NCBI RefSeq assembly: GCF_017875275.1
Contig: NZ_JAGGML010000001.1
Span: forward strand, 2,625,001 to 2,689,000
Source: Xanthobacter flavus
GTDB lineage: Bacteria; Pseudomonadota; Alphaproteobacteria; Rhizobiales; Xanthobacteraceae
Length of the DNA: 64,000 nucleotides
Direction: 5' to 3'
In this document: in pieces, positions 320 through 22,586 of the stretch
Numbering within the stretch: position 1 is the stretch's first letter
How the letters are laid out: every line of letters starts with the position of its first letter
The notes under the pieces: generated by a model
Told to the model about the DNA's origin: nothing
Databases searched by the model: none
The model's input: only the letters and a program-made list of their open reading frames with translations
Program-made: the position numbers and the translations under genes

Positions 320-428
320 CAAACCTCCAGCACGCGGCTTGGCGGTTGCGCTCTCAGAACCTTCGACGGAGCTGAGCGGAGCGCACCGCCAACCGGTAAT
401 CGTCATCTCAGGCTATCATTTATATGTC

Positions 429-471
429 TGGCGCATATAGACAAGCCCCTATATCATGATTATATGCGCCA
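429..471. promoter_or_regulatory. Perfect 11-bp inverted repeat between the hydrolase and LysR genes
   Basis: TGGCGCATATA at 429-439 is matched by its exact reverse complement at 461-471, 21 nt apart. It lies in the divergent intergenic region between the hydrolase gene and the LysR gene. LysR proteins commonly autoregulate from such a site, so it is a candidate operator. It does not resemble the four-copy promoter module found elsewhere in the island. Confidence 0.5.
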
Positions 472-547
472 AGCATACTTCTGCGACCTGCTTTCCAAAG
501 GCGGTCTCACGGAAGAGGTATCAGTCAGGCGCGTGGGCCAAAGGACT

Positions 548-1423: not shown

Positions 1424-1446
1424 ATCACGACGTGAAGAGCTTCGGC

Positions 1447-1503
1447 GCTATGGAAACTATACGCGCAGCGTATTGGATAAATCTGGGGCGCACTGCGATA
1501 GTC
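1447..1503 (+). promoter_or_regulatory. Redox-regulon promoter module, copy A (before msrB)
   Basis: The pattern is CTATGGAAACTATA (1448-1461, a T-N11-A LysR-type box), 9 nt, TATTGGA (1471-1477), 20 nt, ATAGTC (1498-1503). The TTGGAT and GATAGT parts are spaced like -35 and -10 elements (18 nt). The start of msrB is about 65 nt further on. Three similar copies lie at 14368-14424, 14645-14702 and 18734-18790. Confidence 0.65.
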
Positions 1504-1569
1504 GGCGCAATGACTGCAAAGATAAATGACAGCGTGTCGAGCTCTCTAGATTAAGTATTGGAGACTATC

Positions 1570-2013
1570 ATGAAGTTTGAGAAGTCACAGGCAGCAGTTG
1601 ACCGCCTGACCCCCGAGCAACGCCGGATTACCCAGGATTCGGGGACCGAAAGGCCCTTCACGGGTGAGCACAACGACAACAAGGAGCCTGGCATCTACGT
1701 CGACATAGTGTCGGGAGAGCCGCTGTTCGCTTCAACGGACAAGTTCGATTCGGGTACTGGCTGGCCCAGCTTCACCAAGCCGATCGTTCCGGCAAACGTG
1801 AACGAGGTGCGGGACAGTGCACACGGCATGGTCCGGACGGAGGTCAGGTCGGTACACGCCGACAGCCATCTGGGCCACGTGTTCCCGGACGGTCCTTCCG
1901 ACCGCGGCGGTCTGCGCTACTGCATCAACTCTGCGTCCCTTCGCTTCATCCCGCGCGACGAGATGGAGTCCGAGGGATACGGTGAATATCTCGATCAAGT
2001 AGAGGAGGCTTAA
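1570..2013 (+). CDS. msrB: Peptide-methionine (R)-S-oxide reductase MsrB
   Basis: The protein reduces the R epimer of methionine sulfoxide in damaged proteins. Its 147 residues contain the [14 protein letters not shown] and RYCIN motifs of MsrB, with the catalytic Cys at about residue 118. The two CxxC zinc pairs of many MsrB proteins are absent, and the position that often holds the resolving Cys is Thr63, so recycling probably uses an external thiol. The ATG at 1570 follows GGAG; an in-frame TTG at 1558 is less likely. One nucleotide separates it from msrA. Promoter module A lies upstream. Confidence 0.93.
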
Positions 2014-2014
2014 C

Positions 2015-2554
2015 ATGCATCAGCGCGCTGTTCTCGCAGGAGGATGTTTCTGGGGCATGCAGGATCTGATCCGCAAGCGGCCCGGCATCATCTCGACCCG
2101 TGTGGGTTACACGGGCGGCGATATTCCGAACGCCACGTATCGTAATCACGGCACGCATGCCGAGGGGATCGAGATTGTCTTCGACCCGACAGTGACGAGC
2201 TACCGGAACATCCTGGAATTCTTCTTCCAGATCCACGATCCGACGACGCTGAACCGCCAGGGCAATGATCGTGGGCTCTCCTACCGGTCGGGCATCTATT
2301 ATGTCGACGAGGAGCAGAAGCGCGTCGCCGAGGATACGATCGCCGATGTGGATGCCTCGGGGCTGTGGGATGGCAAAGTGGTGACCGAGGTCCAGCCGGT
2401 CGGCGAGTTCTGGGAGGCCGAGCCCGATCACCAGGATTATCTGGAGAAGCGCCCGGGCGGCTACACCTGCCACTTCGTCCGTCCCGGCTGGGTGCTTCCG
2501 AAGCGCCAAAAGGTTGACGACGTACAGCCAGCGGCCGGGACCGCGGCGGAATAG
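2015..2554 (+). CDS. msrA: Peptide-methionine (S)-S-oxide reductase MsrA
   Basis: The protein reduces the S epimer of methionine sulfoxide. Residues 10-14 form the GCFWG motif with catalytic Cys11. The rest ([21 protein letters not shown] and the [10 protein letters not shown] region) is characteristic of the family, and the length (179 residues) is normal for a single-domain MsrA. It starts one nucleotide after the msrB stop codon, with GAGGAGG inside the msrB end acting as ribosome binding site, so the two are co-translated. A second, divergent MsrA variant lies at 19408. Confidence 0.95.
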
Positions 2555-2600
2555 GCTTCACTGCCGTTGCCACTGCGCCGGTCCGGTCCGCAATCTTCGT

Positions 2601-2625
2601 GACCGCGTCGTTCAGCGACGCGGTC
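2601..2625 (+). terminator. Perfect 10-bp hairpin after msrA
   Basis: GACCGCGTCG (2601-2610) and its exact reverse complement (2616-2625) enclose a 5-nt loop. It sits in the 140-nt gap between msrA and the glutathione transferase gene. There is no T-run, so it may be an attenuating or mRNA-stabilising hairpin rather than a full intrinsic terminator. Confidence 0.4.
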
Positions 2626-2694
2626 ATCGAACCCTACTTCAGAGTGACGGCTCGTTCCAGTCAGTCGCCATCGCAACACCAGGATCGCAGATTT

Positions 2695-3399
2695 ATGCCA
2701 GACCTCTCGTCCTTTCCGATCACGCAGCGCTGGCCGGCATCTCATCCCGATCGCCTGCAACTCTACGCAGCCCCTACGCCCAATGGCGTCAAGGTCTCGA
2801 TCATGCTTGAGGAGACTGGCCTGGCGTACGAGCCCCACCTGATCGACATCTCGAACAACGAGTCGAAGGATCCGGCGTTCGTGTCGCTGAACCCGAACGG
2901 ACGCATACCGGCGATCATCGATCCGGCTGGCCCTGACGGTAGACCCATCGCCTTATGGGAATCCGGTGCGATCCTCCTCTATCTGGCCGACAAGACGGGT
3001 CAGTTCATCTCCACCGAACCAGGCCAGCGTTACGAGACCCTAGCGTGGGTGTTCTTTCAGATGTCGGCCATCGGGCCGATGTTCGGTCAGCTCGGCTTCT
3101 TCCTGCGATTTGGCGGCAAGGACTATGAGGACAAGCGGCCGCAACAGCGCTTTATCGACGAATCCACGCGTCTGCTGGGGATTCTGGATCGCCGGCTGGA
3201 AGGCCGCGACTGGATCGTCGACGACTATTCGATCGCGGACATCGCGACGCTCGGCTGGGTGAATGCGCTGGTGGAATTCTACGCTGCGGGTGACATCCTT
3301 GGCCTCAGCAGCTTTTCGAACGTCCGCGCATGGCTTGGACGCGGGCTGGCTCGACCGGCCGTCCAGCGTGGCCTCCACATTCCCGCGAGGCCAGCATGA
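2695..3399 (+). CDS. Glutathione S-transferase family protein (YfcG/Ure2-like)
   Basis: The 234-residue protein has an N-terminal thioredoxin-fold half (LYAAPTPNGVKVSIMLEETG, then NPNGRIPAIID and ESGAILLYLADKTG) and a helical C-terminal half. The AAPTPNG segment resembles the Asn-containing active site of YfcG/Ure2-type enzymes, which act as disulfide-bond oxidoreductases or glutathione-dependent peroxidases. I chose the ATG at 2695 because upstream residues (from 2599) fall in the hairpin region and look non-coding. Its stop overlaps the corA start by 4 nt. It fits with the methionine sulfoxide reductases before it. Confidence 0.88.
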   Translation: MPDLSSFPITQRWPASHPDRLQLYAAPTPNGVKVSIMLEETGLAYEPHLIDISNNESKDPAFVSLNPNGRIPAIIDPAGPDGRPIALWESGAILLYLADKTGQFISTEPGQRYETLAWVFFQMSAIGPMFGQLGFFLRFGGKDYEDKRPQQRFIDESTRLLGILDRRLEGRDWIVDDYSIADIATLGWVNALVEFYAAGDILGLSSFSNVRAWLGRGLARPAVQRGLHIPARPA

Positions 3400-4364
3400 G
3401 CATCATCGCCGCCTATTATTACAACGAAGGCAAGCGAGTTCGCGAAATCGCGCTCGATGAGCACGTCAAGTTGGGCGAGAGTCGCTCGGGCTTCTGCTGG
3501 ATCGCGCTTAGCGAACCCACCCCCGAGGAACTACTCGCGATCCAAAGGACATATAATCTTCATCCGTTGGCGATCGACAACGCGATGCACCCGCTGTGCC
3601 CGCCCAAGCTCGAGGTCTACAACGATGAGTTGTACGTCGTCGCGCAGACCGCCGAGCTGGTCGGCGACCGGATCAGCTACGGCAAGATGGCGATCTTCAC
3701 CGGTCACAATCACCTTATCACCGTGCGGCACGGCAATGCCGGAGCGCTGGGCAAACTTCGGGAGCAACTCGAGGCATCGCCGACGCAGTTCGGCAAGGGT
3801 GTCGACTATGTGCTGCACGCGATCTTGCATCGCGTGGTCGACCAGTATCTGCCCATCTTCGAAATGATCGAGGACGACGTCCTGGCGATGGAGCGACGGT
3901 CGCTGCACGATTTCCTCGGGCCAGAAGAGGTGGCGCGAATCTTCGAACTAAGGTCCGAACTCACGCGGTTCCAGCGCACGCTCGGGGCTATGGCCGAGCT
4001 GGTGCGAAAGCTCGTTCGCGGCCACTTTCCCTGCATCAGCGCCGAAATGACACCATATTTCCACGACGTCGCGGACCATGTCCACCGCGTGCAGTCCATG
4101 GTCGACGGCCTCCTGCTTGTCCTGTCCACGGTCTTTGAGGCCAGCAGCCTTCTGGAAGCGCAAAGGATCGGTGTGGTCACCCGCCAGCTCGCGGCCTGGG
4201 CGGCGATCTTGGCGGTCCCGACGGCGATCGCCGGAATATACGGCATGAACTTCAAGCACATGCCGGAACTGGACACGCCATATGGCTACTTCGTCGTGCT
4301 CGGAGTGATAGCGGTGTTCTGCCTTCTCCTGTTCGTGCGCTTCAAGAAGGCCAAGTGGCTATGA
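3396..4364 (+). CDS. corA: CorA-family magnesium/divalent cation transporter
   Basis: The 322-residue protein has a long cytoplasmic N-terminal domain and two C-terminal membrane helices, about residues 262-284 and 297-317. Between them lies the signature YGMNF (the GMN selectivity motif of CorA). The start ATG overlaps the stop of the glutathione transferase gene (ATGA), so the two are translationally coupled. It probably moves Mg2+ or another divalent metal across the inner membrane. Why it belongs to a redox operon is not clear from sequence; metal supply under oxidative stress is a guess. Confidence 0.92.
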   Translation: MSIIAAYYYNEGKRVREIALDEHVKLGESRSGFCWIALSEPTPEELLAIQRTYNLHPLAIDNAMHPLCPPKLEVYNDELYVVAQTAELVGDRISYGKMAIFTGHNHLITVRHGNAGALGKLREQLEASPTQFGKGVDYVLHAILHRVVDQYLPIFEMIEDDVLAMERRSLHDFLGPEEVARIFELRSELTRFQRTLGAMAELVRKLVRGHFPCISAEMTPYFHDVADHVHRVQSMVDGLLLVLSTVFEASSLLEAQRIGVVTRQLAAWAAILAVPTAIAGIYGMNFKHMPELDTPYGYFVVLGVIAVFCLLLFVRFKKAKWL

Positions 4365-4458
4365 GTAACGCACTTCGCGAGCTTCTCCGTCCGCTGCCGA
4401 GTCGCAGCGCGCTTTGTGCGCGAGCGTGTCCAATCCAGTTCAAGATGAAGGTACTTCC

Positions 4459-5031
4459 ATGTCCTCCCAGGTGACCGACGTTCTAGAAGCAGTCCAGTCA
4501 TTCATCGCCAAAGGCTATGACCGCGAATACCGCGTCAAGGACGGCAATCTCGTCGATCTCGAACTAGGGTCAACCCTCGATGCATGCAGCATTCGCGTCG
4601 ATGCGGCGTTGCGCCTCGAGAGCGGGGACGACGGCGAAGATGCCTCCAACATCTACGCGATCACCGATCCGGCGACAGAGCATAAAGGCCTGTTGATCGA
4701 CGCCTTCGACGTGTTCCACGAAATCTGCCCCCGCGACTTGTCCGAGCGCCTTGTGGCGCATCGGGAAACAGCACCGGCAGGTGACCAGGACGCGCCGAGC
4801 AAGCACGGACTACGGAAAGTCTACAAGAGCGAGTTTCACAGCGATCCCGAGCGCTACGTTCTGCGCGAGGGCTTTCCAGACTTCCCGCCATGCCCTTTCG
4901 GCCAATCCTTCAGCATCCTCGGCTTCGATACTGCCGAGCAGGAATATGTCTGGCTCGTCACGAGTATCATTCGAGATCCTCGGCTGATCCGAGTTCCATA
5001 CCAGGGCGAAGACGTCATCAGCGACGAATAG
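4459..5031 (+). CDS. Conserved protein with a domain often labelled phosphoribosylpyrophosphate synthetase-like
   Basis: This 190-residue protein has an N-terminal part (YAITDPATEHKGLLIDAFDVF, about residues 69-89) that resembles small bacterial proteins frequently annotated as phosphoribosylpyrophosphate synthetase without evidence for that activity. The C-terminal half (YVLREGFPDFPPCPFGQSF and onward) is not recognised. The ATG at 4459 follows GAAGG. It lies between corA and a GreA-like gene on the same strand. No function can be assigned; the name should not be read as an enzyme activity. Confidence 0.65.
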   Translation: MSSQVTDVLEAVQSFIAKGYDREYRVKDGNLVDLELGSTLDACSIRVDAALRLESGDDGEDASNIYAITDPATEHKGLLIDAFDVFHEICPRDLSERLVAHRETAPAGDQDAPSKHGLRKVYKSEFHSDPERYVLREGFPDFPPCPFGQSFSILGFDTAEQEYVWLVTSIIRDPRLIRVPYQGEDVISDE

Positions 5032-5043
5032 CGGTGTCGCCTA

Positions 5044-5070
5044 GCCCGGGGGAGGTTAACCTCCGGGCGC
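5044..5070 (+). terminator. GC-rich hairpin between two island genes
   Basis: GCCCGG and CCGGGC flank the palindrome AGGTTAACCT, giving a strong hairpin 13 nt after the stop codon at 5031. There is no T-run behind it. It probably limits readthrough into, or stabilises the transcript before, the GreA-like gene. Confidence 0.4.
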
Positions 5071-5120
5071 TACACATCTGCAAGCTGAACTTTAAACACA
5101 TCGCAAATTAGGAGGTGATT

Positions 5121-5570
5121 ATGGACTGGAACAAGGACCACATCCGACAAACGATGCTCTCGCTGGAGACCGCAGCCTTGCACAGTGCTCGTGAGAACTA
5201 CCTGGACTATGTCTCTACCGCTCGGCTCGACCGGAGCGAACCGATCGAAAACGACGAACTAGCTCAGGCCGAGGTCGCGAGCGACTTCGCTGAAGCGCTC
5301 GATGACACGCTCCATGACTATGCGGATAAACTCGAAAAGCTCAGGACGATCGATTTCGGCCCCAAGTTGGCCGTCGGCGAAGGCGCTGTCGTCAAGCTGT
5401 CCGGCCGCCACTTTGTGATCGCGGTGTCAACGAGCAAGTTTACCTGTCAGGGGCGTGAGCTCATGGGCATTTCCACGATGGCGCCGATCTTCGAAGCGAT
5501 CGAGGGTGCCCGAGCCGGGGAGACCGTGCAGTTCAACGGCCGGGACCTCACCGTAGAAGACGTGGAATAA
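5121..5570 (+). CDS. GreA/GreB C-terminal-domain protein
   Basis: The 149-residue protein has a helical N-terminal region (LETAALHSARENYLDY) and a C-terminal FKBP-like domain of the GreA/GreB type (VVKLSGRHFVIAVSTSKF, then MGISTMAPIFEAIEGARAGE and FNGRDLTVEDVE). Such proteins are listed as transcription elongation factors, but the acidic coiled-coil tip that GreA inserts into the RNA polymerase channel is not evident. They may bind the polymerase secondary channel. A near-perfect Shine-Dalgarno (AGGAGGTGAT, 5110-5119) fixes the ATG at 5121. Confidence 0.72.
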   Translation: MDWNKDHIRQTMLSLETAALHSARENYLDYVSTARLDRSEPIENDELAQAEVASDFAEALDDTLHDYADKLEKLRTIDFGPKLAVGEGAVVKLSGRHFVIAVSTSKFTCQGRELMGISTMAPIFEAIEGARAGETVQFNGRDLTVEDVE

Positions 5571-5676
5571 AGCCCTCCACCGCAGCCGGCGCGCTAGTGC
5601 CGAACGCCCTGCATCTCTTTCTGCATGCATACGGTCACTTGCAACCGCATTGACCTGGCTCATCAGAGGCAAACTC

Positions 5677-6078
5677 ATGACAACACCTTCATTCTTCATC
5701 ACCCCCGGATACGGGACGCGCCTGCATGACGCGCTTCATTATTCTCAGGCAATGCGCATTGGTGACCGCGTGGAGATCTCCGGACAGGGCGGATGGAACG
5801 ACGATCTCGTCATTCCGGAGTCGATTGAGGAAGAGATCGAGCAGGCGTTCAAGAACGTGGAACGGACGCTCGCGACCGCCGGAGCACGCTGGCCGCATGT
5901 GGTCCACGTCAATTCCTATCACGTCGGTGGTTTCCCTCCCGTGATCAACGAAACAATGGCCAAGCTGTATCGCCACTACATGCCCGACCGCGCTCCAATC
6001 TGGACGCAGTTGGGAATCGAAGCGCTGGGGCTTCCAACCATGCGTATCGAAATTCGCGTAACAGCTATCATCGCCTGA
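5677..6078 (+). CDS. RidA-family enamine/imine deaminase
   Basis: The 133-residue protein matches the RidA (YjgF) fold: a VEISGQGGWNDD strand, an EEEIEQAFKNVERTLATAG helix and a final RIEIRVTAI strand with the substrate-binding Arg. RidA proteins hydrolyse reactive enamine/imine intermediates, and some turn into chaperones when N-chlorinated by hypochlorous acid. That second role would suit an island full of oxidant-repair genes, but the sequence alone does not show it. The ATG at 5677 is preceded by AGAGG; an in-frame start at 5650 is less likely. Confidence 0.88.
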   Translation: MTTPSFFITPGYGTRLHDALHYSQAMRIGDRVEISGQGGWNDDLVIPESIEEEIEQAFKNVERTLATAGARWPHVVHVNSYHVGGFPPVINETMAKLYRHYMPDRAPIWTQLGIEALGLPTMRIEIRVTAIIA

Positions 6079-6108
6079 CCCCGCGGTTCGTGCAGGCGCC
6101 GTGCCGCG

Positions 6109-6922
6109 CTAATCCCGCACGCCCTGCGCCCGCTTCTCGATGCAGATCATCGTATCGAGAGATCCGGTTATCATCGGCGTGCTCGGAGAACGGGGGGCCG
6201 CCTTGGCCTGGTTGGCGCGCCTCGGCTGCCTGCGGGCGATGGCCAGCACTGCCAGGAGCGCGAGCAACGCCGCCGCATAAAGGAACAGGCCGCCAGGGCC
6301 GACGATATTCATTGCAGCTGCTCCTATTAAGGGGCCAGCGGCTGTCCCGATCCCGTTGAGCAACAGAAGCCCGCGCGCGGTGCCGAGTAGCCGACCGGCC
6401 GGAAGATCGTCGTTTGCGACGGCGAGACACAACGAATAAATCGGGATGCCAAAGCCGCCAAACAGCGCACCCGCCGCAAGGAGCAGCGGCAGAGGCGCTT
6501 CCACCGCCAACGCTACGCCGATGGCAGACGCTGCGGACGCCAGCGCCGCACCGGCGATGACAAGATTCCGGGGCACTCGATCCGAAAGCCAACCGAGTGG
6601 CCAATGGAAGGCGAGCGTTCCACCAAGAACCGCAGCCATGAAGGCGGAGATACCGCCCACATCGAGGCCGATGCTCTGTGCGAAGTTCCCGCCCATGCCC
6701 CAGAAACCACCGATAGCCAGGCCGGCCAGGAAAGCGCCAGCCGCAGCGAGAGGTGATACGAGGACGAGGTCCCTCAACGCGACCCGTTCCTGTTCCACCT
6801 GGGCCGGCGGATGAATGGGCAGCAAGGTGATCGGAACCACCGCCGCTGATATCAGCAGCGACACGATGAGGAACAATGTCACGTCGGCGGGCGGTGCGAT
6901 GTCCGAGATGGTCAGATTTTGA
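6109..6922 (-). pseudogene. MFS transporter, C-terminal half (gene split by insertion)
   Basis: Read on the minus strand, the frame begins at QNLTISDIAPPADVTLFLIV and continues through the last helices of a major facilitator superfamily protein. Its missing N-terminal half is found at 10804-11289, where it ends with GSWAIGQALL. Joining the two at CTTCAAAATC restores one frame across the break (codons TTA CTT CAA AAT CTG). The halves are separated by about 3.9 kb. An apparent start further upstream (7284) only reads antisense through the neighbouring HEPN gene and is not real. Confidence 0.82.
6915..6922. repeat. Insertion-flanking direct repeat GATTTTGA, left copy
   Basis: GATTTTGA here and at 10795-10802 flank the 3.9 kb segment that splits the MFS gene. 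Read on the minus strand it is TCAAAATC, the anticodon-loop sequence of tRNA-Leu(CAA), also present in the intact tRNA at 24573-24580. It looks like the crossover core of a tyrosine recombinase. Confidence 0.65.
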
Positions 6923-7746
6923 AGCTGTTGCTGCATGGGCCATATGCATCGGGTGCATGGGTCGATGACCCCGGCGGCAGGTACTTCGCTGACTATGACC
7001 TCCTGGTCCTGGTCAGCAGCGAAAGGCTGGCGGATGTCGGGGAGTTTTGGCTTGAATGCGAAAGGAGCCTGTTGTTCGCTTCGGTGAATCGAGAACACCT
7101 CAGAACGCCTGTGCGGCTCACGATCCTGAGCTTCGAGCGATTCAGCAACGAGATTTACCAGGGAAATCGATACTTCCAGAACATCATGGAAGAGTGCGTT
7201 GTGTTGCATGATGCGGACCCTACCGTTTGGCCCGACTGCAACGCGGTGGCGGCGCTCGATGTAGTTGCACAGGCCGACCGCCACCGAGCGGAAGGCTTCG
7301 CGCTTGTTGCCGAGTTCCTCGGATCAGCGAAGCTGTCTGCCGCGAATGGCTGGTTCCGGAAGGCCGCGTTCGACCTGCATCAAGCCACCGAACGACTCTA
7401 CAATATCGCCTTGTTGGTGCTCCTAGGGCGCACCCCACACACCCATAACATCGTCGACCTGCGGAAGCTTGCCGAGTCTGCGAGTGAGCAGCTTCGCGTC
7501 GTGTGGCCGACTGAGACCAAAGAAGATCGCAGGTGCTTTGAGCTGCTTCGTGCTGCCTATAACAAGTCCAGATATAACCGGCACTATCGGGTCGCTGCCA
7601 GCGAAGCTGCTTGGATGATCGAGCAGGTCGAGTATTTGTCCGACCTCGTCAACGACGCGTGTGACAGGTGGATCGACGGATTAAACAGTTCCCGGGACCA
7701 ACTCGTGAAGATCCCTACGACAGACGGGGCAGATGATCGGCGTTAG
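6919..7746 (+). pseudogene. MNT-HEPN protein (nucleotidyltransferase plus HEPN domain), 5'-truncated
   Basis: The 275-codon frame opens with a TTG inside the junction repeat and at once enters a minimal-nucleotidyltransferase motif (LLLHGPYASGAWV, then YFADYDLLVLV). The usual G-S is G-P and ARG is ASG here, so that domain may be inactive. From about residue 115 onward a HEPN domain follows, with KSRYNRHYRV resembling its R-x4-6-H site. Relatives have roughly 40-60 residues before this motif; here they are replaced by antisense MFS sequence. HEPN/MNT pairs often act as toxin-antitoxin or defence modules. Expression is doubtful. Confidence 0.62.
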
Positions 7747-7842
7747 GGAACCAGCGAGGCTGTCGACCGAGACAATTTCAGGGGTGAGCAGACCGCGGTC
7801 GATAGCGAACGCCCGCAAATTCACAACGCGGGAGATGTGAAC

Positions 7843-8133
7843 ATGCGGAGACGAAACTTTCGGACACCCTTTACGAGACAGCGATTGTCGCAGGCAGAAG
7901 TGGAATTCCAGGCACCGCAGGAGGCGATCAATTGCGACCAGCGCAAACTCCTTACCGCCGTCACCGCTCTGCCCGAGCCTATGAGGGACGTTTTCTTACT
8001 CAACAGGATTTCAGGGCTTTCATACGCTGAGATCGCACATCACCTCGACCTTGATATCATTATGGTGGAGAGCAGGCTTAGCGAAGCGCTCATTGCACTA
8101 GACCAAGCTGTCTTCTCCGAAGCCTCTGGCTAG
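7843..8133 (+). CDS. Sigma-70 region 4 helix-turn-helix protein (ECF-like, region 4 only)
   Basis: The 96-residue protein contains LPEPMRDVFLLNRISGLSYA followed by EIAHHLDLDIIMVESRLSEAL, the region-4 helix-turn-helix that contacts -35 promoter elements. Region 2, needed for melting and -10 recognition, is absent: the roughly 40 residues before are basic and unlike it. A GGGAG 8 nt upstream supports the ATG at 7843; a GTG at 7837 is also in frame. It may be a truncated ECF sigma factor or a small regulator. No anti-sigma gene is adjacent. Confidence 0.65.
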   Translation: MRRRNFRTPFTRQRLSQAEVEFQAPQEAINCDQRKLLTAVTALPEPMRDVFLLNRISGLSYAEIAHHLDLDIIMVESRLSEALIALDQAVFSEASG

Positions 8134-8446
8134 GTGCATCACGGACTAGGATGGTGCGGCTGCAATCTGTCGATGGCGAGCCGCGCTTCAATCGCTAGCG
8201 GTCGCCTCTGCGCCAGCAGCGGTCATTACCGACTTGGTTGAAAGGCGATATTCCGCTCTTCACACAGACCCCGGTTTTCAGTCGAACACCGTAGGCCTTG
8301 TCGGCGTGATCGCGGATCGCTGCTGGCCTCTCGGCGATACTGACCGCGGCAGGCGCAGACCGACATGAACGTGATGCCCGGCGAGGGCGAGAACGGCGAA
8401 GACCTCGTAGGCATAGGGCGCTGTGGTCGGGCAGAGGCCGCCTGCC
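8134..8446. other. Intergenic stretch without a recognisable gene
   Basis: Between the sigma-like gene and the convergent reductase gene there are 313 nt. Short frames exist on both strands but none has a ribosome binding site or a recognisable domain. A minus-strand frame (APYAYEVFAVLALAGHHV) could be a gene remnant, but I cannot name it. Confidence 0.4.
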
Positions 8447-9100
8447 CTATCTCGGTGGGAGCGGTGTCGCCTTGGCAAGGTTAGCAACCAGCTCGGGACG
8501 CGTTTGATGGTCGTGCGCGTGCCATGCGGGCTGACCCGGACCGCTACGCCAGGACTCGCTAAGCGGGCTGTTGTCCGCCGTGTCGAAGCCGAACTGGTCG
8601 TACAGTCGCGTGACCAGCGCCACCGCTTCGGGATAGTCGCTCGACACCGACAGCGCGTGCCGCCCCGGCGTGCCAGCGGGCCGCGCCGACAGCAACAGGC
8701 GCGGCGCCTGGATATGCGTGAACGCCTTCGCGACCTTGGACGTTGGCAGCTGGTCCTGCCGCAGTTCGTGCTCGGTCTTCGCGCCGGTATCGACGAGGGC
8801 ATAGCGCCCGTCGCGCCACGGCATATAGTTGTTGGTGTCGAGCACGATCTTGTTCGCCAGTTGCGCCACGGGCATGTCGTTGACCAGCTTGAGCGGGACC
8901 GCGATCACGACGAACTCTCCCGCCTCCGCCGCACCGGCAGCGGTCGCGGCGCGGGCAGACGGCCCGAGCTCCGCGACCAGCCCGGCCAGGGTTTCGGGCC
9001 CGCGCGAGTTGGCGATGACCACCCGATAGCCGTTGGCGATGGCGGCGCGGGCAATCTGGCTGCCGACCTCGCCTGCGCCGATGATGCCGATGGTGGTCAT
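8447..9100 (-). CDS. NADPH-dependent F420 reductase-like oxidoreductase
   Basis: The 217-residue protein opens with a Rossmann dinucleotide motif (TIGIIGAGEVGSQIARAA) and continues with NSRGPETLAGLVAELG and VLDTNNYMPWRDG, typical of the F420-dependent NADP reductase superfamily (coenzyme F420 use itself is not implied). The ATG at 9100 gives the normal N-terminus; an upstream frame overlapping bdcA adds residues that do not fit. It lies 19 nt after the bdcA stop on the same strand and is probably co-transcribed with it. A second member of the family is at 21179. Confidence 0.8.
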   Translation of the reverse strand: MTTIGIIGAGEVGSQIARAAIANGYRVVIANSRGPETLAGLVAELGPSARAATAAGAAEAGEFVVIAVPLKLVNDMPVAQLANKIVLDTNNYMPWRDGRYALVDTGAKTEHELRQDQLPTSKVAKAFTHIQAPRLLLSARPAGTPGRHALSVSSDYPEAVALVTRLYDQFGFDTADNSPLSESWRSGPGQPAWHAHDHQTRPELVANLAKATPLPPR

Positions 9101-9119
9101 CGGCGTTCGCGCCGCCGGA

Positions 9120-9833
9120 TCAGGCACCGAACGCGCCGTCGATGGTGTGCATGGCGCCCGTAACGAACCCCGCCTCCTGGCCGGCGAGCCACGCCACCAT
9201 GCCCGCGACTTCCTCCGGCCGGCCGTGGCGCTTGATCGCCATGAAGCCGTGCAGCAGCTCCTTCATGGGTCCGTCCGCCGGATTGGCGTCGGTGTCGATC
9301 GGGCCGGGCTGCACCACGTTAATCGTGATCCCGCGGGACCCGAAGTCGCGTGCCAGCCCGCGCGCCATCCCTTGCAGCGCAGACTTGCTGAGCGCGTAGG
9401 AGGACATGCCGGGAACGGGCATCCGGTCGCCGTTCACCGATCCGATGACGATGATCCGGCCGCCCTGGGGCATCTGGCGCGCGGCCTCGACCGAGGCATG
9501 ATAGGGCGCGTGGATATTGATCCGGAACAGCCGGTCGATTGCGTCCGGATCCTGCTCCAGCGCATCGCCGAAAACACCGATTCCGGCATTGACGACCAGC
9601 ACGTCGAGCGCGCCACTGTCCTTCACGCGCGCGATCACCGCGTCGCGATCCGCGCTGTCCGTCTCGACAGCAGTGCTGCCCGTTTCGGCCGCCAGCGCGT
9701 GGGCCGCGTCACGCGAGCCGGAATAGGTAAAGGTCACATTCGCGCCATCGGCCACAAAACGCCGAACGATCGCCGCGCCGATCCCCCGACTGCCACCCAG
9801 CACGAGAACGGATTTCGCCTCAAACGCACCCAT
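9120..9833 (-). CDS. bdcA: BdcA-like short-chain dehydrogenase (c-di-GMP-binding biofilm dispersal protein)
   Basis: The 237-residue protein has LGGSRGIGAAIVRRF as cofactor motif, VVNAGIGVFGDALE, IGSVNGDRMPVPG and the catalytic YALSK. From memory of the family, these segments and the length match Escherichia coli BdcA closely. BdcA is reported to bind cyclic di-GMP and promote biofilm dispersal; any enzymatic substrate is unknown. The ATG at 9833 (MGAFEAKSVLVLGG) follows AGGAGAG. It is divergent from bdcR, the same arrangement as in enterobacteria. Confidence 0.88.
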   Translation of the reverse strand: MGAFEAKSVLVLGGSRGIGAAIVRRFVADGANVTFTYSGSRDAAHALAAETGSTAVETDSADRDAVIARVKDSGALDVLVVNAGIGVFGDALEQDPDAIDRLFRINIHAPYHASVEAARQMPQGGRIIVIGSVNGDRMPVPGMSSYALSKSALQGMARGLARDFGSRGITINVVQPGPIDTDANPADGPMKELLHGFMAIKRHGRPEEVAGMVAWLAGQEAGFVTGAMHTIDGAFGA

Positions 9834-9904
9834 CGGACTCTCCTTGATCAATAACTTACGACCCGCTACATAAACGGTTCGAAACATTCGTCAAGGTATT
9901 TGTA
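9834..9904. promoter_or_regulatory. bdcA/bdcR divergent intergenic region
   Basis: This 71-nt AT-rich spacer separates the two divergent genes and must hold both promoters and the BdcR operator. Short complementary pieces such as AACGGTTCG and CGAAACATT are visible around 9874-9890, but no perfect long palindrome. Its assignment as operator region rests on the bdcA/bdcR layout. Confidence 0.4.
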
Positions 9905-10498
9905 GTGGCTCAAACAAAAATACGCCGTGCACGAGGCAGACCGCGCCTGTTCGACCCGGACGAAGCGGTCGCGACCGCCCAGCGGCTGTTCCATTCGCGT
10001 GGCTACGATTCCGTCAGCATCGCGCACCTGACCCAGGCGATCGGGATAAACCCGCCGAGCTTTTATGCCGCCTTCGGCAGCAAGGCCGAGCTCTACAGCC
10101 GCATTCTCGATCGCTATGCCGGCACCGGCGCGATCCCGCTGTTCGATCTGCTGAAAGCCGATCTCCCGGTCGCGGAATGCCTCGTCGCGGTGCTGGAAGC
10201 GGCGGCGCGGCGCTATGCCGCCGATCCGGACGCGGCGGGATGCCTCGTTATCGAGGGGGTGCGCTGCACCGACCGCGAGGCACGCGAGGCGGCCGGAACG
10301 TTCCTTGCGGCGGCGGAGGGGGCGATCCATCGCTTCGTCGCCGCGCGCCATCCCGATCAGGCCGAGCGCGTGACCGACTATATGAGCACCGTCATGGCCG
10401 GCCTGTCCGCCAGCGCTCGCAACGGGCACGATCTCGATCGCCTGCTCGCCGCCGCCCGGCTCGCCGGGGCTGGTCTTGAGCAGGTGGTTCGCGGTTAA
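9905..10498 (+). CDS. bdcR: TetR-family regulator BdcR
   Basis: The 197-residue protein has an N-terminal TetR helix-turn-helix (AVATAQRLFHSRGYDSVSIA, then LTQAIGINPPSFYAAFGSKA, about residues 22-62) and a ligand-binding helical C-terminal domain. It starts with GTG at 9905, 71 nt from the divergent bdcA start. The length and the RGRPRLFDPDEAV opening agree with BdcR, the repressor of bdcA in Escherichia coli. Its inducer is not known. Confidence 0.85.
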   Translation: MAQTKIRRARGRPRLFDPDEAVATAQRLFHSRGYDSVSIAHLTQAIGINPPSFYAAFGSKAELYSRILDRYAGTGAIPLFDLLKADLPVAECLVAVLEAAARRYAADPDAAGCLVIEGVRCTDREAREAAGTFLAAAEGAIHRFVAARHPDQAERVTDYMSTVMAGLSASARNGHDLDRLLAAARLAGAGLEQVVRG

Positions 10499-10526
10499 TC
10501 TGCAAACTCGGCAAATGATCAGGACG

Positions 10527-10664
10527 TTATCGACCGGAAAGGTTGGTCGCGAACACCGCGTCGCGCTGCCGCTTCAGCGTTTGCGTGCCATCCGACTTGG
10601 ACACCTGGATATGGCCGATGGGCAATGCGCACTCCTCCAGAAAAGACTGAAAGCTCCCGGGCAC
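10527..10664 (-). CDS. Short open frame or gene remnant next to the tRNA fragment
   Basis: A 45-codon frame starts with GTG and reads PGSFQSFLEECALPIGHIQV and then KSDGTQTLKRQRDAVFATNL. It looks protein-like and could be the C-terminal end of a lost gene. I do not recognise the family. It lies between bdcR and the tRNA-Leu fragment, where an attachment-site-proximal gene of a mobile element is expected. No clear ribosome binding site is seen. Confidence 0.3.
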   Translation of the reverse strand: MPGSFQSFLEECALPIGHIQVSKSDGTQTLKRQRDAVFATNLSGR

Positions 10665-10750
10665 TGCGGCTTATCGTGCGGACGCGAAGCTGACATGCTG
10701 AAGGTCCGAAACGAGTCAAAAGCGGCCAATGGCCGGGATCGAACATTCCG

Positions 10751-10803
10751 TGGTGCGGGTGGCCGGGGTCGAACCGGCACTCCTCTCGGAACTGGATTTT
10801 GAG
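10751..10803 (-). pseudogene. tRNA-Leu 3' half (anticodon loop to CCA)
   Basis: On the minus strand the sequence runs from ACTCAAAATCCAG through the variable arm and the T-arm (GGTTCGACCCCGGCC) to the encoded CCA. The 5' half is missing; MFS coding sequence joins directly at the anticodon loop. It differs at several positions from the intact tRNA at 24529, so it came from another tRNA-Leu gene. A decayed second T-arm-like piece (GTTCGATCCCGGCC) lies next to it at about 10731-10744. It resembles the tRNA segment carried by an integrating element's attP. Confidence 0.75.
10795..10802. repeat. Insertion-flanking direct repeat GATTTTGA, right copy
   Basis: This copy lies at the boundary between the tRNA-Leu 3' half and the N-terminal half of the MFS gene. 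It pairs with the copy at 6915-6922, 3,880 bp away. The MFS side lacks one T compared with the reconstructed uninterrupted gene, which fits an exchange between ACT and CAAAATC. Confidence 0.62.
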
Positions 10804-11289
10804 TAACGCCTGCCCGATTGCCCATGAGCCCATAGAGACAACTCCGAATATCGACAGGAGCTGCCCGCGCGTGGATGGCAATGCGTGGGCGTTGAGCCAA
10901 CTCTCCGTTGCGAGGATCATGCCCGCGTAGGCGAAGCCGGTAATCAGGCGAAGCGGCATCCAGGCGATCGGCTCCACGAACGCCACATGGAGAAGGGCGG
11001 TCATCGAGGCAATCGCCGCGAAGCCGGCGAAGGTTCTGACATGTCCCACGGAGACGATGATCGGTGGCAACACGAGCGCGCCGATCGTGAAACCCGCGAA
11101 GTAGAAGGACATCATCGCGCTGATCGCGCCGGTCGAGAACCCCTCATGGCCGGCTCTCACGATCAGGAGCGTGCTCAGCAGGCCATTGCCCAGCAGCAGA
11201 GCGGCGACGCTCAGCAGCAGCGCCGCCACCGGCGCGAGAACGAGGCCGCGCTTGCCCGCCGACCTCATGGTATCCATCGCCGGGCTCAT
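10804..11289 (-). pseudogene. MFS transporter, N-terminal half (gene split by insertion)
   Basis: The frame encodes the first half of an MFS transporter: a start at 11289, helices LVLAPVAALLLSVAALLLG and FYFAGFTIGALVLPPIIVSV, the loop RGQLLSIFGVV, and an abrupt end after WAIGQALL where tRNA-Leu sequence begins. The C-terminal half is at 6109-6922. The ATG overlaps the stop of the DM13 gene upstream (ATGA), so it was the last gene of that operon. The substrate is unknown; the split protein is almost certainly non-functional. Confidence 0.82.
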
Positions 11290-11777
11290 TCTCGGGCCTG
11301 ACGTGAGGGTTGATACTCTGCCGCACTGATGAACTGGTCGAATGCTTCGCACCAGATGACGACCGTGTTGTAGTCGCGGACATCGATGCCGGCAGGCACC
11401 TCGACGATGAAGCCGTTGAACGTCTTCACGTCGCCCACGCGGACTGATCTGTCCTTGATCAGGAGAAAGGCCTCCTTCGTGTCGACGAAACGTGGTGCGA
11501 GGTAGAGCTTGTAGTCGGGACCAGGGGCGAGGCGCCCGATATGGGCGATACGGTCGCGCGAGACCCGGATCTCGCCTTCCCCCCAGTGAAGCAGGTCGCT
11601 GCCTTTGAGATCGCGGGCCAGACGCCCTGCGTAGAGCGTCTCGGCTGAGATGGTCCGCAAGGCCGCCGCGTCCGGGGCCTGGGGAGCGGTCAGGATCGGC
11701 AGCGTGTAGACACCGCCCGCGAAGCCCATGGCGAGCATCGCGAGATGGGTGGCAATCAGGATGACCCAGCGCCGCAT
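11286..11777 (-). CDS. Membrane-anchored DM13-domain protein
   Basis: The 163-residue protein has one N-terminal membrane helix (VILIATHLAMLAMGFAGGVY) and a soluble domain ending in YNTVVIWCEAFDQFISAA, the conserved Cys-containing strand of the DM13 domain, which is proposed to act in electron transfer. The Cys sits at about residue 147. It starts 3 nt after the thioredoxin-like gene and its stop overlaps the MFS start. With a thioredoxin-like partner it probably works in extracytoplasmic thiol or electron transfer; this is inference. Confidence 0.78.
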   Translation of the reverse strand: MRRWVILIATHLAMLAMGFAGGVYTLPILTAPQAPDAAALRTISAETLYAGRLARDLKGSDLLHWGEGEIRVSRDRIAHIGRLAPGPDYKLYLAPRFVDTKEAFLLIKDRSVRVGDVKTFNGFIVEVPAGIDVRDYNTVVIWCEAFDQFISAAEYQPSRQARE

Positions 11778-11780
11778 CGG

Positions 11781-12251
11781 TTACACCAGCTCCAGTCCCT
11801 TCACGAGCTGATCGGCGTCGAGATGGAAGTCCGAGAATACGATGCGGCCGCCAGCGTCCATCACGGAGAACCAGGGCGTTCCCCGCGTGCGGTAGTCCTC
11901 CATGAAGGTGGGAAGCGTCGCGCCGGCAGGTGGCTCGTCGTGACCGAACGCGACAGGAAGCGCATACTTGAGCTGGTTCACGCGCAGCTTCTCGAAGGTG
12001 TTCTCATCCGCTCCTTCGAAGACGGTCTGGATCACCGCGAAGCCCACGCCCTTGGCGCTCAATGCACCATGCAACCTTTGTAGCGTCGGAAATCCATGCA
12101 AATGGCAGCCACGGCACCAGTGCTGGAAGGCGAAGAGGACTTTCGGGCCGGTGCCGAGATCCGACAGCTTGAGCGGCGCGATGCTTTCTCCATCCACGCC
12201 AATCCATCTCTGCACCCGCAGCTCGGGGGCTTGTCGTTCGTCGACGCTCAT
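11781..12251 (-). CDS. Thioredoxin-fold protein (TlpA/AhpC-TSA type)
   Basis: The 156-residue protein contains QHWCRGCHLHGFP with Cys46 and Cys49 as a CxxC redox pair, followed by AVIQTVFEG and TPWFSVMDAGGRIVFSDFHL, a thioredoxin-fold end. No signal peptide is seen with the ATG at 12251; an upstream GTG at 12308 gives no secretion signal either, so the protein is probably cytoplasmic. It is the first gene of a tight three-gene cluster with DM13 and MFS genes and may belong to the longer operon that begins with the alcohol dehydrogenase at 14273. Confidence 0.8.
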   Translation of the reverse strand: MSVDERQAPELRVQRWIGVDGESIAPLKLSDLGTGPKVLFAFQHWCRGCHLHGFPTLQRLHGALSAKGVGFAVIQTVFEGADENTFEKLRVNQLKYALPVAFGHDEPPAGATLPTFMEDYRTRGTPWFSVMDAGGRIVFSDFHLDADQLVKGLELV

Positions 12252-12401
12252 CTGATCCTCCAATTCCGATGCAGAAGTCCGATGAGTGGTCGCGTGTGGC
12301 GATGGCACGCGAACCTCACCGCCTTGATCCCTACAGGTTGTAGGATGCGAGTTCGCCGACAGATACCTCGTGGCCAGCGCCGCCGTTCTTCCGTCGGTGT
12401 G

Positions 12402-12707
12402 TCACCGCCGCCCCTCAATGACAAAGGCGCGATAGCGGGAACCGGCAAAACGGTGCGCAGCGATGGTTTGGTAGGCGGGGCTATGATACCAATCACGGGC
12501 GGCCTGCATCGTCGGGAACCGCAAAATTACGGCCCCTTCGACGGGCGGCCCCTCCAAATGCTCCATCGCGCCATAAGCGGCGAGAAAGGTTACGTCGTGG
12601 CCATCGAACGATGGGCCGACGCCTGCAGAATAGGTTGCGAGTTCTTCCGGATCGGTGGTTTCTTCGCGGGTGAAGACGACGAACGCTTCCATCTTAAAGT
12701 CTTTCAT
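12402..12707 (-). CDS. DUF1330 family protein
   Basis: The 101-residue protein has the compact DUF1330 pattern: AAYGAMEHLEGPPVEGAVIL, RFPTMQAARDWYHSPAYQ and RYRAFVIEG at the end. The fold is a dimeric alpha-beta ferredoxin-like barrel; no activity is established. I chose the ATG at 12707; a longer frame upstream overlaps the neighbour and is out of character. It lies 47 nt after the HbpS/GlcG-like gene on the same strand and is probably in its operon. Confidence 0.78.
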   Translation of the reverse strand: MKDFKMEAFVVFTREETTDPEELATYSAGVGPSFDGHDVTFLAAYGAMEHLEGPPVEGAVILRFPTMQAARDWYHSPAYQTIAAHRFAGSRYRAFVIEGRR

Positions 12708-12754
12708 AAGGTCGGATCTGCAGGCCACCGCCGCTGGCGATGGCCTTAAAGTCG

Positions 12755-13186
12755 TCAGGCTGGCAGCTCGAACCCGATTTTCGTGAGTGCCTCGACGCAC
12801 GCATCCTGATCCTGCTGATAGTTGCCTCCGGAGATGCCGATCCCGCCGATCAACTTCCCGTCTTCCAGGATCGGATAGCCTCCGCCGACAGCGACCATCC
12901 GGGGGCGATAGGCCAGCGGCGCCACTTTCGGATCGTTCGAAACATAGTCGTTCCAGACATGGGTCGGATACCCAAACGAGGCGGAACTCCAAGCCTTGTC
13001 GATGGCAACATCGACGGTGAGAAACGGCGCGTCATCAGTGCGCTCGAACGCGCGCAGGTTACCGGTGGCGTCGACGACGGCGACCGCAGCCGGGATGCCG
13101 ATTGTACGTGCCGCGGCGATCGCCGCGTCGATGAGGGCGACGGCGGTTTCGCGGTTGATCGAGGCGGTGGCAATGGATTTCGTCAT
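12755..13186 (-). CDS. GlcG/HbpS-family heme- or cofactor-binding protein
   Basis: The 143-residue protein carries AIAAARTIGIPAAVAVVDAT, the KAWSSASFGYPT region and GGGYPILEDGKLIGGIGISG, all typical of the GlcG/HbpS family. HbpS of Streptomyces binds heme and takes part in redox sensing; other members are uncharacterised. The ATG at 13186 has AAGGAA upstream. It is 73 nt downstream of the alcohol dehydrogenase gene and presumably follows it in the transcript from promoter module B. Confidence 0.8.
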   Translation of the reverse strand: MTKSIATASINRETAVALIDAAIAAARTIGIPAAVAVVDATGNLRAFERTDDAPFLTVDVAIDKAWSSASFGYPTHVWNDYVSNDPKVAPLAYRPRMVAVGGGYPILEDGKLIGGIGISGGNYQQDQDACVEALTKIGFELPA

Positions 13187-13259
13187 GGAATTTCCTTCGC
13201 CGTGGCGTAATCCGTCCGGCGTTCTTGAGGTTAGAAAAGACGTTCGGCGGTGGCAGTCA

Positions 13260-14273
13260 TCAGAAGCCTTCGAGGACAATCTTGCCTCTTGCTGCGCCAC
13301 TTTCGATTAGTGCGTGCACCGTCTTCAGATTGGCGGCATTAATTGGCGACAATTTTTCGGTTAGCGTCGTGCGAATTTTGCCGTCGTCCACCAGCACCGC
13401 CAGCGAATTGAGGATCTTGCCCTGCTCATCCATGTCGGGCGTGCCGTAGAGCGACCGTGTGAACATCAGCTCGTGGTGGATCGACACTGCCTTGCGCTTG
13501 AACAGCATGACGTCGAGTGCCTTGGGATCGTCGATGAATCCGAACCGTCCTTGCGGGGCGATCAGTTCGGCGATGTCGGCGACATGCTGCTCGGTATGCG
13601 TGGTCGAGAACACGAAAGCGGGAGCGCCGATGCCGAGCTCGGCAATCTGTGGCGCGAGCGGCCGAGAGTGGTCGATGACATGATGAGCCCCAAGCCCTTT
13701 AACCCACTCCTGGGTTTGCGGCCGAGAGGCGGTGGAGATGACGATGAGATCCGTGCGCTGTCGCGCGATCTGGATGGCGATCGACCCGACCCCGCCCGCA
13801 CCACCGATGATGAGGATCGCCAGCGCCGCACCGGGGATAGGCTTTGTCACATCCAGGCGGTCGAACATCGCTTCCCATGCCGTCAACGTCGTGAGCGGCA
13901 GCGCCGCCGCTTCCGCCCAGTCGAGCGACGCGGGCTTACGACCGACGATCCGGGCGTCGACGAGATGGAACTGCGCATTGGTGCCGGACCTTATGAGCGA
14001 TCCGGCATAATAGACCTCGTCGCCTGCCGCGAACTGCGTCACGTCGGGGCCGACCTCGCGCACGATCCCGGCCGCATCCCATCCGAGCACCTTCCAGTCG
14101 CCATCGGCGGGCGGCGTGCTGCTGCGGATTTTGTAATCGACCGGATTGACGGAGACGGCCTTGACCTCAACCAGGATATCGTATCCTGCAGCGACAGGCC
14201 AAGGCAGATCGATGTCGACCAGCGCGGCGTCCTCGGCGATGGGTCCCGGAACCTTGTAACCAACGGCTTTCAT
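13260..14273 (-). CDS. Zinc-type alcohol dehydrogenase/quinone oxidoreductase
   Basis: The 337-residue protein belongs to the medium-chain dehydrogenase family. It has a GroES-like N-terminal half (VSVNPVDYKIRSS, GWDAAGIVREVGPDV) and a Rossmann half with IIGGAGGVGSIAIQIARQRT for NADPH. The catalytic zinc ligands are not conserved, so it is more likely an NADPH:quinone or enone reductase than an alcohol dehydrogenase; such enzymes detoxify quinones and reactive carbonyls. It is the first gene of a minus-strand run, and promoter module B lies about 100 nt upstream of its ATG. Confidence 0.87.
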   Translation of the reverse strand: MKAVGYKVPGPIAEDAALVDIDLPWPVAAGYDILVEVKAVSVNPVDYKIRSSTPPADGDWKVLGWDAAGIVREVGPDVTQFAAGDEVYYAGSLIRSGTNAQFHLVDARIVGRKPASLDWAEAAALPLTTLTAWEAMFDRLDVTKPIPGAALAILIIGGAGGVGSIAIQIARQRTDLIVISTASRPQTQEWVKGLGAHHVIDHSRPLAPQIAELGIGAPAFVFSTTHTEQHVADIAELIAPQGRFGFIDDPKALDVMLFKRKAVSIHHELMFTRSLYGTPDMDEQGKILNSLAVLVDDGKIRTTLTEKLSPINAANLKTVHALIESGAARGKIVLEGF

Positions 14274-14367
14274 CAGTGTCTCCAGCTTTCTGTATCCTGA
14301 AGTCTTGATCGATCAGACCGAAAATTATTTCGAACTATACTCAGGATTTAAAGATTTCGCGTGGTCA

Positions 14368-14424
14368 GACTATGACGGTATGGGCGCAACATATCCAATA
14401 GCGGCACGACATAGTTTCCATACC
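14368..14424 (-). promoter_or_regulatory. Redox-regulon promoter module, copy B (before alcohol dehydrogenase)
   Basis: On the minus strand: GGTATGGAAACTATG (14424-14410), 9 nt, TATTGGA (14400-14394), 20 nt, ATAGTC (14373-14368). The spacings equal those of copy A exactly. The expected transcription start is about 90 nt before the alcohol dehydrogenase ATG at 14273. The last base of the T-N11-A box is G here. Confidence 0.65.
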
Positions 14425-14644
14425 TCTGAGCCGGATTCAGAAGATTATCGATAGTAGCGGTTTATTGCGGCTCGGCGGGTGAGATCCGGATTGAGGCGAT
14501 AAGCGCCCAAGCGGTTGAGGATTCGACCTCTCAGCGGTAGCATTGGCAGGGGCGATCTCGCCCCCGAGCTCACACTACCGCTGGCAAGCCACGGCGTCCG
14601 GTCGAAATCCGCCAACGGAGATGCGCCTGTAGTGCCGCTGTAAG

Positions 14645-14702
14645 GCTATCAAAATTATAGCCACAGGGTATTGGGAAATCATGCCGGCCTGACGCTATAG
14701 TC
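14645..14702 (+). promoter_or_regulatory. Redox-regulon promoter module, copy C (before the molybdoenzyme)
   Basis: GCTATCAAAATTATAG (14645-14660), 9 nt after its T-N11-A box, then TATTGGG (14669-14675), 21 nt, ATAGTC (14697-14702), with TATAGT as a good -10. It faces the molybdoenzyme operon, whose ATG is at 14879, leaving a leader of about 170 nt. Confidence 0.6.
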
Positions 14703-14878
14703 TACACGCAATAACCACGACTCAAAATGATCCAACACTTTTCTATGCTAATAGAGCATCCGGTATCTGAGTTTGAGTGAATTGGCTCGTTCGGCGGTTG
14801 TGCGTGCAAAGGTCTTTTTTACAGAGTTCCGAGCTGAATCCGGTTCTGGTCTGTCGTGACAAGCAAGGAGGTTTCGCT

Positions 14879-15484
14879 ATGGTCACCAGAGGTTTCACCG
14901 GCCGCGGTTCAGGCGGCGACCAGTCCGATCGGATTCCGCCAGGTCAGCATCTCGTGGAGAATTTCCCTGTTCTGACGGCCGGGCCAACGCCGAGCGTGGA
15001 GCCCTCCGATTGGAAATTCACCGTCAAGATCGGTCCGAAGCCCGTCAAAGTGTGGAACTGGAGCGAGTTCAACGCCCTACCCAAGACCAAGATGACCCGA
15101 GACATTCACTGCGTCACGTCCTGGTCCAAGCTGGATACCGCGTGGGAGGGCGTACTCGTAGAAGACATCCTTGTAGATGCAGGGCTCGATCGGCCCACCG
15201 ATTTCGTTTTGGCGCACTGCTACGATAATTACTCGACAAACGTCCCGCTGGCGGATCTTCTCTCCGGGAAAGCGATGGTCGCCCTCAACTATGCGGGCAA
15301 ACCGCTTCCCCGCGATCATGGAGGGCCGGCGCGTCTTCTGGTTCCGCACCTTTACTTCTGGAAGTCCGCCAAATGGGTGAACGCGCTGCAATTCACAACG
15401 CGTGACGAGGCCGGATTTTGGGAGCTGCGCGGCTATCACATCTACGGCGATCCGTGGCGCGAGCAACGATACACCAATGACTGA
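14879..15484 (+). CDS. Sulfite-oxidase-like molybdopterin oxidoreductase
   Basis: The 201-residue protein is a stand-alone oxidoreductase molybdopterin-binding domain. DIHCVTSWSKLD provides the Mo-ligand Cys at about residue 78, followed by DNYSTNVPLADLL and the PRDHGGPARLLVP segment. There is no twin-arginine signal, unlike periplasmic MsrP (YedY), so it should be cytoplasmic. AAGGAGG before the ATG at 14879 fixes the start. It overlaps the flavin reductase gene by 8 nt, so the pair probably forms an NAD(P)H-driven oxide reductase. The substrate is unknown; a sulfoxide or N-chlorinated compound is a guess. Confidence 0.85.
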   Translation: MVTRGFTGRGSGGDQSDRIPPGQHLVENFPVLTAGPTPSVEPSDWKFTVKIGPKPVKVWNWSEFNALPKTKMTRDIHCVTSWSKLDTAWEGVLVEDILVDAGLDRPTDFVLAHCYDNYSTNVPLADLLSGKAMVALNYAGKPLPRDHGGPARLLVPHLYFWKSAKWVNALQFTTRDEAGFWELRGYHIYGDPWREQRYTND

Positions 15485-16220: not shown

Positions 16221-16288
16221 CGGCGCAAGCTACTTCGCGTCCCGCCGATCGTGGACGTGCAGCCCACGGATTAATTTTGGAGATCATC

Positions 16289-17554: not shown

Positions 17555-17606
17555 CGGTAGATCAACGCCATGACAGCGATCCGCTTCCAACTGTCGGAGA
17601 CGCGAT

Positions 17607-17879: not shown

Positions 17880-17945
17880 GGGGGCGCGGCCCGGGCAGAC
17901 ACCCCATGACCCCGCGCCGGTTTTTGAACGGGAAAGGAGAGTCCG

Positions 17946-18227: not shown

Positions 18228-18393
18228 CAGACCGGTCAGGCGGCGGCTTCGCTGATGGCCCTGTGCAAGCGCCGGCATCTAAAATCTTCCGCCCATCCCG
18301 AAACGGCTCGGCTGAAGGACACTGCCCCGGGCCGTTCGGCGCCAACAGCGTCGAATCCTTGCGTCTCTGCCGGATCAAGACGGGTGGATTGAG

Positions 18394-18660: not shown

Positions 18661-18733
18661 CGGGCAGGTGGCGGTCCCGGCCGACCGGTCCGCGTGCGAC
18701 GCCCGCTCCCTACGACTGCGCAGGTCGCTCAAA

Positions 18734-22573: not shown

Positions 22574-22586
22574 TTTATTTTCCTCC

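Follow-up and report, generated by a model that had tools for sequence, protein, structure and literature searches.

Integrative and conjugative elements (ICEs) of the ICEMh1/ICEPmu1 type, found in Pasteurellaceae, enter the anticodon loop of the tRNA-Leu for UUG. According to the excerpted description, their direct repeat is GATTCAAAATC, and three copies of the tRNA-Leu are present: one end has the full-length copy with a disrupted one beside it, and the opposite end has a further disrupted one (PMC6861422). An ICE of about 82 kb in Xanthobacter flavus has the same layout, with an anticodon-loop target, a spare full-length tRNA and disrupted halves; its right-hand part lies in the window analyzed here, a stretch of 64,000 nucleotides from contig NZ_JAGGML010000001.1. 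The comparison is by layout only, the host group is another one, and the core here is the 7-bp CTCAAAA. Inside this ICE, a segment of 3.9 kb interrupts a gene for a major facilitator superfamily (MFS) transporter. No counterpart of such a scar in cargo is among the reported features of the Pasteurellaceae elements in that excerpted description (PMC6861422).

Integration at secondary sites is established for ICEBs1 (PMC3715440) and SGI1 (PMC2297512), in which a site-specific tyrosine integrase uses imperfect copies of its attB, of tRNA type or other, and disrupts protein genes. The attB of ICEBs1 consists of a 7-bp spacer between 5-bp arms (PMC3715440). The site in the MFS gene is likewise an imperfect copy of an integrase core in a protein gene, and the right junction of the 3.9-kb insert behaves as in those systems. 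However, ICEBs1 and SGI1 entered host DNA as complete elements with two hybrid att junctions, whereas the insert has one hybrid core, carries no integrase and lies in the cargo of an ICE, and its left junction falls outside the definition of a secondary-site event. We read the segment as the scar of an off-target recombination inside the ICE, made by the ICE's integrase or by one of the same family, and give this a probability of about 0.6. We count the case as one more instance of a type of event already known, and not as a new system.

The interrupted MFS gene and its two junctions

Intact copies of the MFS gene, about 98.7% identical, occur on many plasmids. Plasmid pFBAOT6 matches the window (blastn) over positions 1–6902 at 96.3% and over positions 10795–14754 at 96.9%, and both pieces are contiguous in the plasmid. 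Its MFS coding sequence is intact and lies between the genes for RidA and a DM13 protein; the gene is intact in other plasmids too. The empty site, taken from two plasmid records, is GGCGGTGCGATG^TTGAGTAACGCC, and the number of target bases lost from the MFS gene is 0. The native codons at the joint are GCG TTA CTC AAC ATC GCA, the native protein reads ...WAIGQALLNIAPPADV..., and the site itself is GCGTTA-CTCAACA-TCGCACC.

An earlier reading of the window, here called the original prediction, had described an MFS gene split by about 3.9 kb of DNA that has the 3′ half of a tRNA-Leu at one side and contains no integrase. These claims stand. The split is confirmed by the intact plasmid copies and the contiguous blastn flanks, the tRNA half on the right (10751–10803) begins at the anticodon loop, and a domain scan of the insert proteins detected no integrase and no transposase. 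The details of the joint fared differently. The two MFS halves had been rejoined in frame at CTTCAAAATC (QALL-QNLTISDIA), but the empty site in two plasmids reads otherwise: uninterrupted homologues lack CTTCAAAATC at the joint, which overturns the proposed joint by the prediction's own criterion, while the split gene stands. The QNLTISD residues placed at the head of the C-terminal half are translated insert. Joining at the shared TCAAAATC would give CTC AAA ATC TGA, which ends in a stop codon. The left end had been set at the GATTTTGA of positions 6915–6922, but these bases encode Ile-Leu-Lys (ATT TTG AAG) of a nucleotidyltransferase-HEPN protein, and the homology of its gene to one in a Brevundimonas metagenome-assembled genome is unbroken as far as position 6898.

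An exact copy of the spare-tRNA loop, TTCAAAATC, lies at 6915–6923 in the nucleotidyltransferase coding sequence, 13 bp inside the left junction. It is probably a matter of codon chance.

At the right junction the exchange falls within TCAA, with the preceding C from the MFS gene and the following base from the tRNA. The MFS target CTCAACA agrees with the ICE core CTCAAAA at 6 of 7 positions, and CTCAA-ATC matches over 9 bp. The insert edges are ambiguous within GATGT on the left (6898–6902) and TTGAG on the right (10799–10803), where plasmid and window are the same. The left junction has no hybrid core, and simple integration of a circle is therefore excluded. Within the island, counting both strands, CTCAAAATC with no more than one mismatch occurs at only 19 of 164,110 positions, so the chance that a random breakpoint falls at such a core-like site is roughly 1e-4 per exact phase.

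The ICE and its spare tRNA-Leu

A tRNA 5′ half (24771–24809) and a 3′ half (G000:C1:2567662–2567716, genome numbering) lie 82 kb apart and rejoin at CTCAAAA to give a canonical tRNA-Leu(caa). Two close relatives (G001 and G009) carry the rejoined tRNA unbroken, and its 5′ flank is the same there. The 82-kb element therefore split the chromosomal tRNA-Leu(CAA) at its 7-bp anticodon loop CTCAAAA. The 3′ half, which a genome search with the tRNA region returned, lies 57 kb left of the window. The element encodes a DUF3363 relaxase-like protein, a T4SS-DNA_transf coupling protein, and TrbB-, TrbE-, TrbL- and TrbI-type proteins; its relaxase and trb-type genes are left of the window. Because these relaxase-like, coupling and trb-type secretion genes lie inside it, the element is, by its integrase and transfer genes, classed as an ICE, and this gene content predicts that it is self-transmissible. 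The other tRNA-Leu genes found in the genome have the anticodons tag, gag, cag and taa, so the spare tRNA carried by the ICE is apparently the only CAA type left.

The spare tRNA with its conserved 5′ flank was found in only 4 of 392 genomes of the family, namely X. flavus (G000), G062, G063 and G262. The integrases most similar to that of the ICE are those of G063 (96%) and G262 (94%). In G262 and G010 the integrase adjoins a tRNA-Leu 3′ half, with GGTCTCTCAAAA just before the half, and G062 has an independent right ICE end at the same core, 24779. The tRNA half of the insert agrees with the spare tRNA of the related ICE in G262 at 52 of 53 positions, versus 88% identity with the spare tRNA of its own ICE. 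This half is of the 85-nt spare type and not of the 87-nt chromosomal type of the genus, and the insert was thus rejected as a flank of the chromosomal tRNA-Leu native to the host.

At 24751–24763, on the island side of attL, the sequence GGATTGGTAGAC nearly repeats the tRNA D-arm in inverted form. G062 and G063 have it as well, G262 has a close version, and it is possibly a part of attP. The spare tRNA-Leu and its upstream region are about 92% identical on the Agrobacterium vitis plasmid CP146241 (L086:12029–12113), near a tyrosine integrase gene and an AlpA gene; judged from such matches, the spare tRNA-Leu gene appears to travel on mobile elements across orders. A locus in G006 that matches the tRNA half of the insert at 98% was rejected as its donor, being the end of a different element that shares nothing else with the insert. 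The G006 element (L137:7054–8824) has a 418-amino-acid integrase downstream of guaA and ends at a spare-type tRNA-Leu 3′ half, with CCCCTTCAAAA before the half. The tRNA-Leu loop may thus serve a second integrase family as well.

Origin of the insert

In the favored reading, the integrase of the ICE, or one of the same family, would have recombined the pseudo-site in the MFS gene with a spare tRNA carried by a related ICE. Such an exchange would yield the junction of MFS N-terminal half, CTCAAAA and tRNA 3′ half, and would bring in the DNA downstream of the spare tRNA. The other end would have been closed by end-joining through the 5-bp GATGT in the nucleotidyltransferase gene, with no proper second att exchange. 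Two Ku genes are present in the host genome, so end-joining is possible there. An integrase is implicated because the donor end falls precisely where this ICE family cuts tRNA-Leu and because the target matches 6 of the 7 core bases; chance would hardly bring such a target and such a donor end together. From the GATGT left junction without a core, together with MFS arms that are not inverted, we infer one integrase-made and one end-joined junction. The process may have run in one step, a fragment being captured where the integrase had made a break, or through later deletion of a larger element that held the integrase. The exact keeping of the MFS bases favors a one-event history over integration plus deletion.

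Several observations weigh against this reading. Among the marks of a secondary-site integration, the likeness of the target to the core is present, but a hybrid core at both junctions, attB-like arms and an integrase in the insert are absent. The left junction reads TGTCCGA, where TGTTGAG or TTTTGAG would be expected. The MFS core, CGTTA-CTCAACA-TCGCA, lacks 5-bp inverted arms, and attB is GCGGA-CTCAAAA-TCCGC. No donor locus and no close match to the insert was found in plasmids, in the 392 genomes of the family or in 385 genomes of the class, and the sequence of G262 departs from the insert directly after the CCA end.

Part of the same evidence is open to a purely illegitimate insertion, in which no recombinase took part: a broken fragment that happened to end in tRNA-Leu would have been sealed into a break in the MFS gene through microhomology on either side, by end-joining of the Ku/LigD type or an alternative kind. 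Each junction can be taken for a 5-bp microhomology, the two lie next to each other in the target and no target base is lost, the host has its two Ku genes, and the insert is a mosaic in which genes are truncated at, or close to, each end. We nevertheless consider this origin unlikely: the fragment ends at the ICE family's exact tRNA-Leu cut, the target keeps 6 of 7 core bases, and core-like sites make up only about 1e-4 of positions. A two-step history is a sub-case of the favored reading and is counted in its share. A whole related ICE, or a smaller mobilized element, would first have integrated by ordinary strand exchange at the pseudo-core in the MFS gene; its integrase end would subsequently have been deleted, which joined the nucleotidyltransferase gene to the MFS gene. 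This agrees with the hybrid core of the right junction and with the Brevundimonas nucleotidyltransferase homolog, which adjoins conjugation genes and a serine recombinase gene as ICE cargo would. The deletion, however, must end within a few bases of the original att junction, leaving no remnant of the element and no loss of MFS sequence, which makes two steps a somewhat unlikely course.

The original prediction took the segment for a complete 3.9-kb integrative element between GATTTTGA repeats, with an attP that targets the anticodon loop of tRNA-Leu and used a secondary site in a protein gene. Its idea of a recombinase acting at a secondary site survives, as the ICE integrase cuts the same loop and CTCAACA is one base off the core, and at the right end the tRNA-Leu 3′ half does start from a break in the loop. 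That GATTTTGA repeats mark both ends of an element is very improbable: only the right junction is hybrid, the left GATTTTGA lies 13 bp inside the insert, where the coding homology runs on uninterrupted, and CTTCAAAATC is missing from the native joint. The search that it had proposed for the uninterrupted MFS gene and for other forms of the segment succeeded for the gene; the segment is single copy in the genome, and no donor was found in the plasmids and the family and class genomes searched. We give as little credence to a transposon (for example Tn402/Tn5053-like) inserted in the MFS gene. A fragment of a resolvase gene at 10545–10648 speaks for it, but there is no transposase, no inverted repeat between the two ends and no clean target duplication, the left end having the native GATGT and the right end the tRNA-derived GATTT.

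A wider and rather doubtful extension of the favored reading treats spare tRNAs on ICEs as recombination hubs. In this view the shared integrase also targets the anticodon loops of the spare tRNAs, and recombination between such a loop and a loop-like heptamer in a cargo gene would let related ICEs trade their terminal cargo.

Table 1. Features of the insert, the MFS gene and the surrounding ICE. Positions are those of the window unless marked as genome positions.
Feature	Position	Strand	Evidence or remark
MFS transporter, C-terminal half, start ...ACATCGCACCG (IAPPADV)	6109..6902	-	Plasmid comparison, empty site, blastn
Left junction microhomology GATGT, common to MFS and nucleotidyltransferase gene	6898..6902	+	Empty site, blastn
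Inserted foreign DNA, 3,897 bp, single copy in genome; no transposase, integrase or terminal inverted repeats seen	6903..10799	.	Plasmid comparison, domain scan
Nucleotidyltransferase-HEPN gene, 5′ end cut off at left junction	6898..7746	+	HEPN domain; homolog and DNA alignment
Sigma-70 region 4 domain protein, 98 amino acids	7837..8133	+	Domain scan
NADP-dependent F420-type oxidoreductase	8447..9127	-	Domain scan
Short-chain dehydrogenase; a gene annotated as bdcA is among its distant plasmid matches	9120..9887	-	Domain scan, plasmid search
TetR-type regulator	9905..10498	+	Domain scan
Serine recombinase (resolvase) gene, 5′ fragment	10545..10648	-	87.5% to Sphingobium plasmid gene
tRNA-Leu(CAA) 3′ half, spare type, anticodon loop to CCA	10751..10803	-	52/53 to G262 spare tRNA
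Right junction, hybrid core CTCAAAA; native MFS here CTCAACA	10797..10803	-	Empty site, window alignment
MFS transporter, N-terminal half	10800..11289	-	Intact plasmid copies 98.7% identical; flank contiguous with plasmid
Right-hand part of ~82-kb ICE in window	1..24777	.	att sites, integrase, transfer genes
Complete spare tRNA-Leu(CAA) carried by ICE, just inside attL	24529..24613	-	Genome tRNA comparison
5′ half of chromosomal tRNA-Leu(CAA), attL (right end of ICE)	24771..24809	-	Rejoined tRNA, relatives
attR, left ICE end	genome 2567710-2567716
Tyrosine integrase, 473 amino acids, Phage_integrase and Arm-DNA-bind_3	genome 2567895-2569316		~180 bp from attR

Gene content and meaning for the ICE family

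The insert is a mosaic fragment and not a complete integrative element (Table 1). About 60 codons are gone from the nucleotidyltransferase-HEPN gene, as judged against the Brevundimonas homolog, a relative at 68% and the one that the search of genome contigs gave. A search of viral contigs with the nucleotidyltransferase protein alone found no donor. The Sphingobium plasmid gene that matches the resolvase fragment stands ahead of an integrase/AAA-ATPase pair. Because the plasmid, family and class samples yielded no close donor, the insert may be a mosaic assembled earlier. Beyond the tRNA 3′ half, a T-arm-like repeat (TTCGATCCCGGCCA) is present at 10727–10741, perhaps a remnant of another tRNA-end integration. 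The MFS gene is broken by the insertion, and we propose no role for the inserted DNA other than as cargo.

Positions 1–18873 of the window form a gene block known from gammaproteobacterial plasmids at about 96% identity (msrAB, GST, CorA, RidA, MFS, DM13, OsmC, thiolase and glutaredoxin). IncU and other plasmids of this group (pFBAOT6, pKAM339_1 and many more) carry this stress-gene block at about the same identity, but there the MFS gene is intact and the block is in a plasmid, whereas here it is in a tRNA-Leu ICE. The block is common to the ICE of X. flavus and many enterobacterial and Aeromonas plasmids, and its sequence points to a recent transfer between classes. The left end of the ICE encodes a Gabija pair (GajA and GajB; L057:10464–13635) and a cyclase of a cyclic-oligonucleotide-based antiphage signaling system with a patatin-type effector (L057:17856–19691).

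In the favored reading, the target sequence of an integrase was used, or misused, in the cargo of the integrase's own ICE, and the apparent partner was the spare tRNA of a related ICE. The imported tRNA-Leu(CAA) is apparently the sole one in the host, which would make the element hard to lose. If spare tRNAs do act as recombination hubs, tRNA halves found out of place would point to the exchange of cargo from ICE to ICE. If confirmed, the event described here would show concretely how ICEs of this kind can acquire cargo genes and disrupt them.

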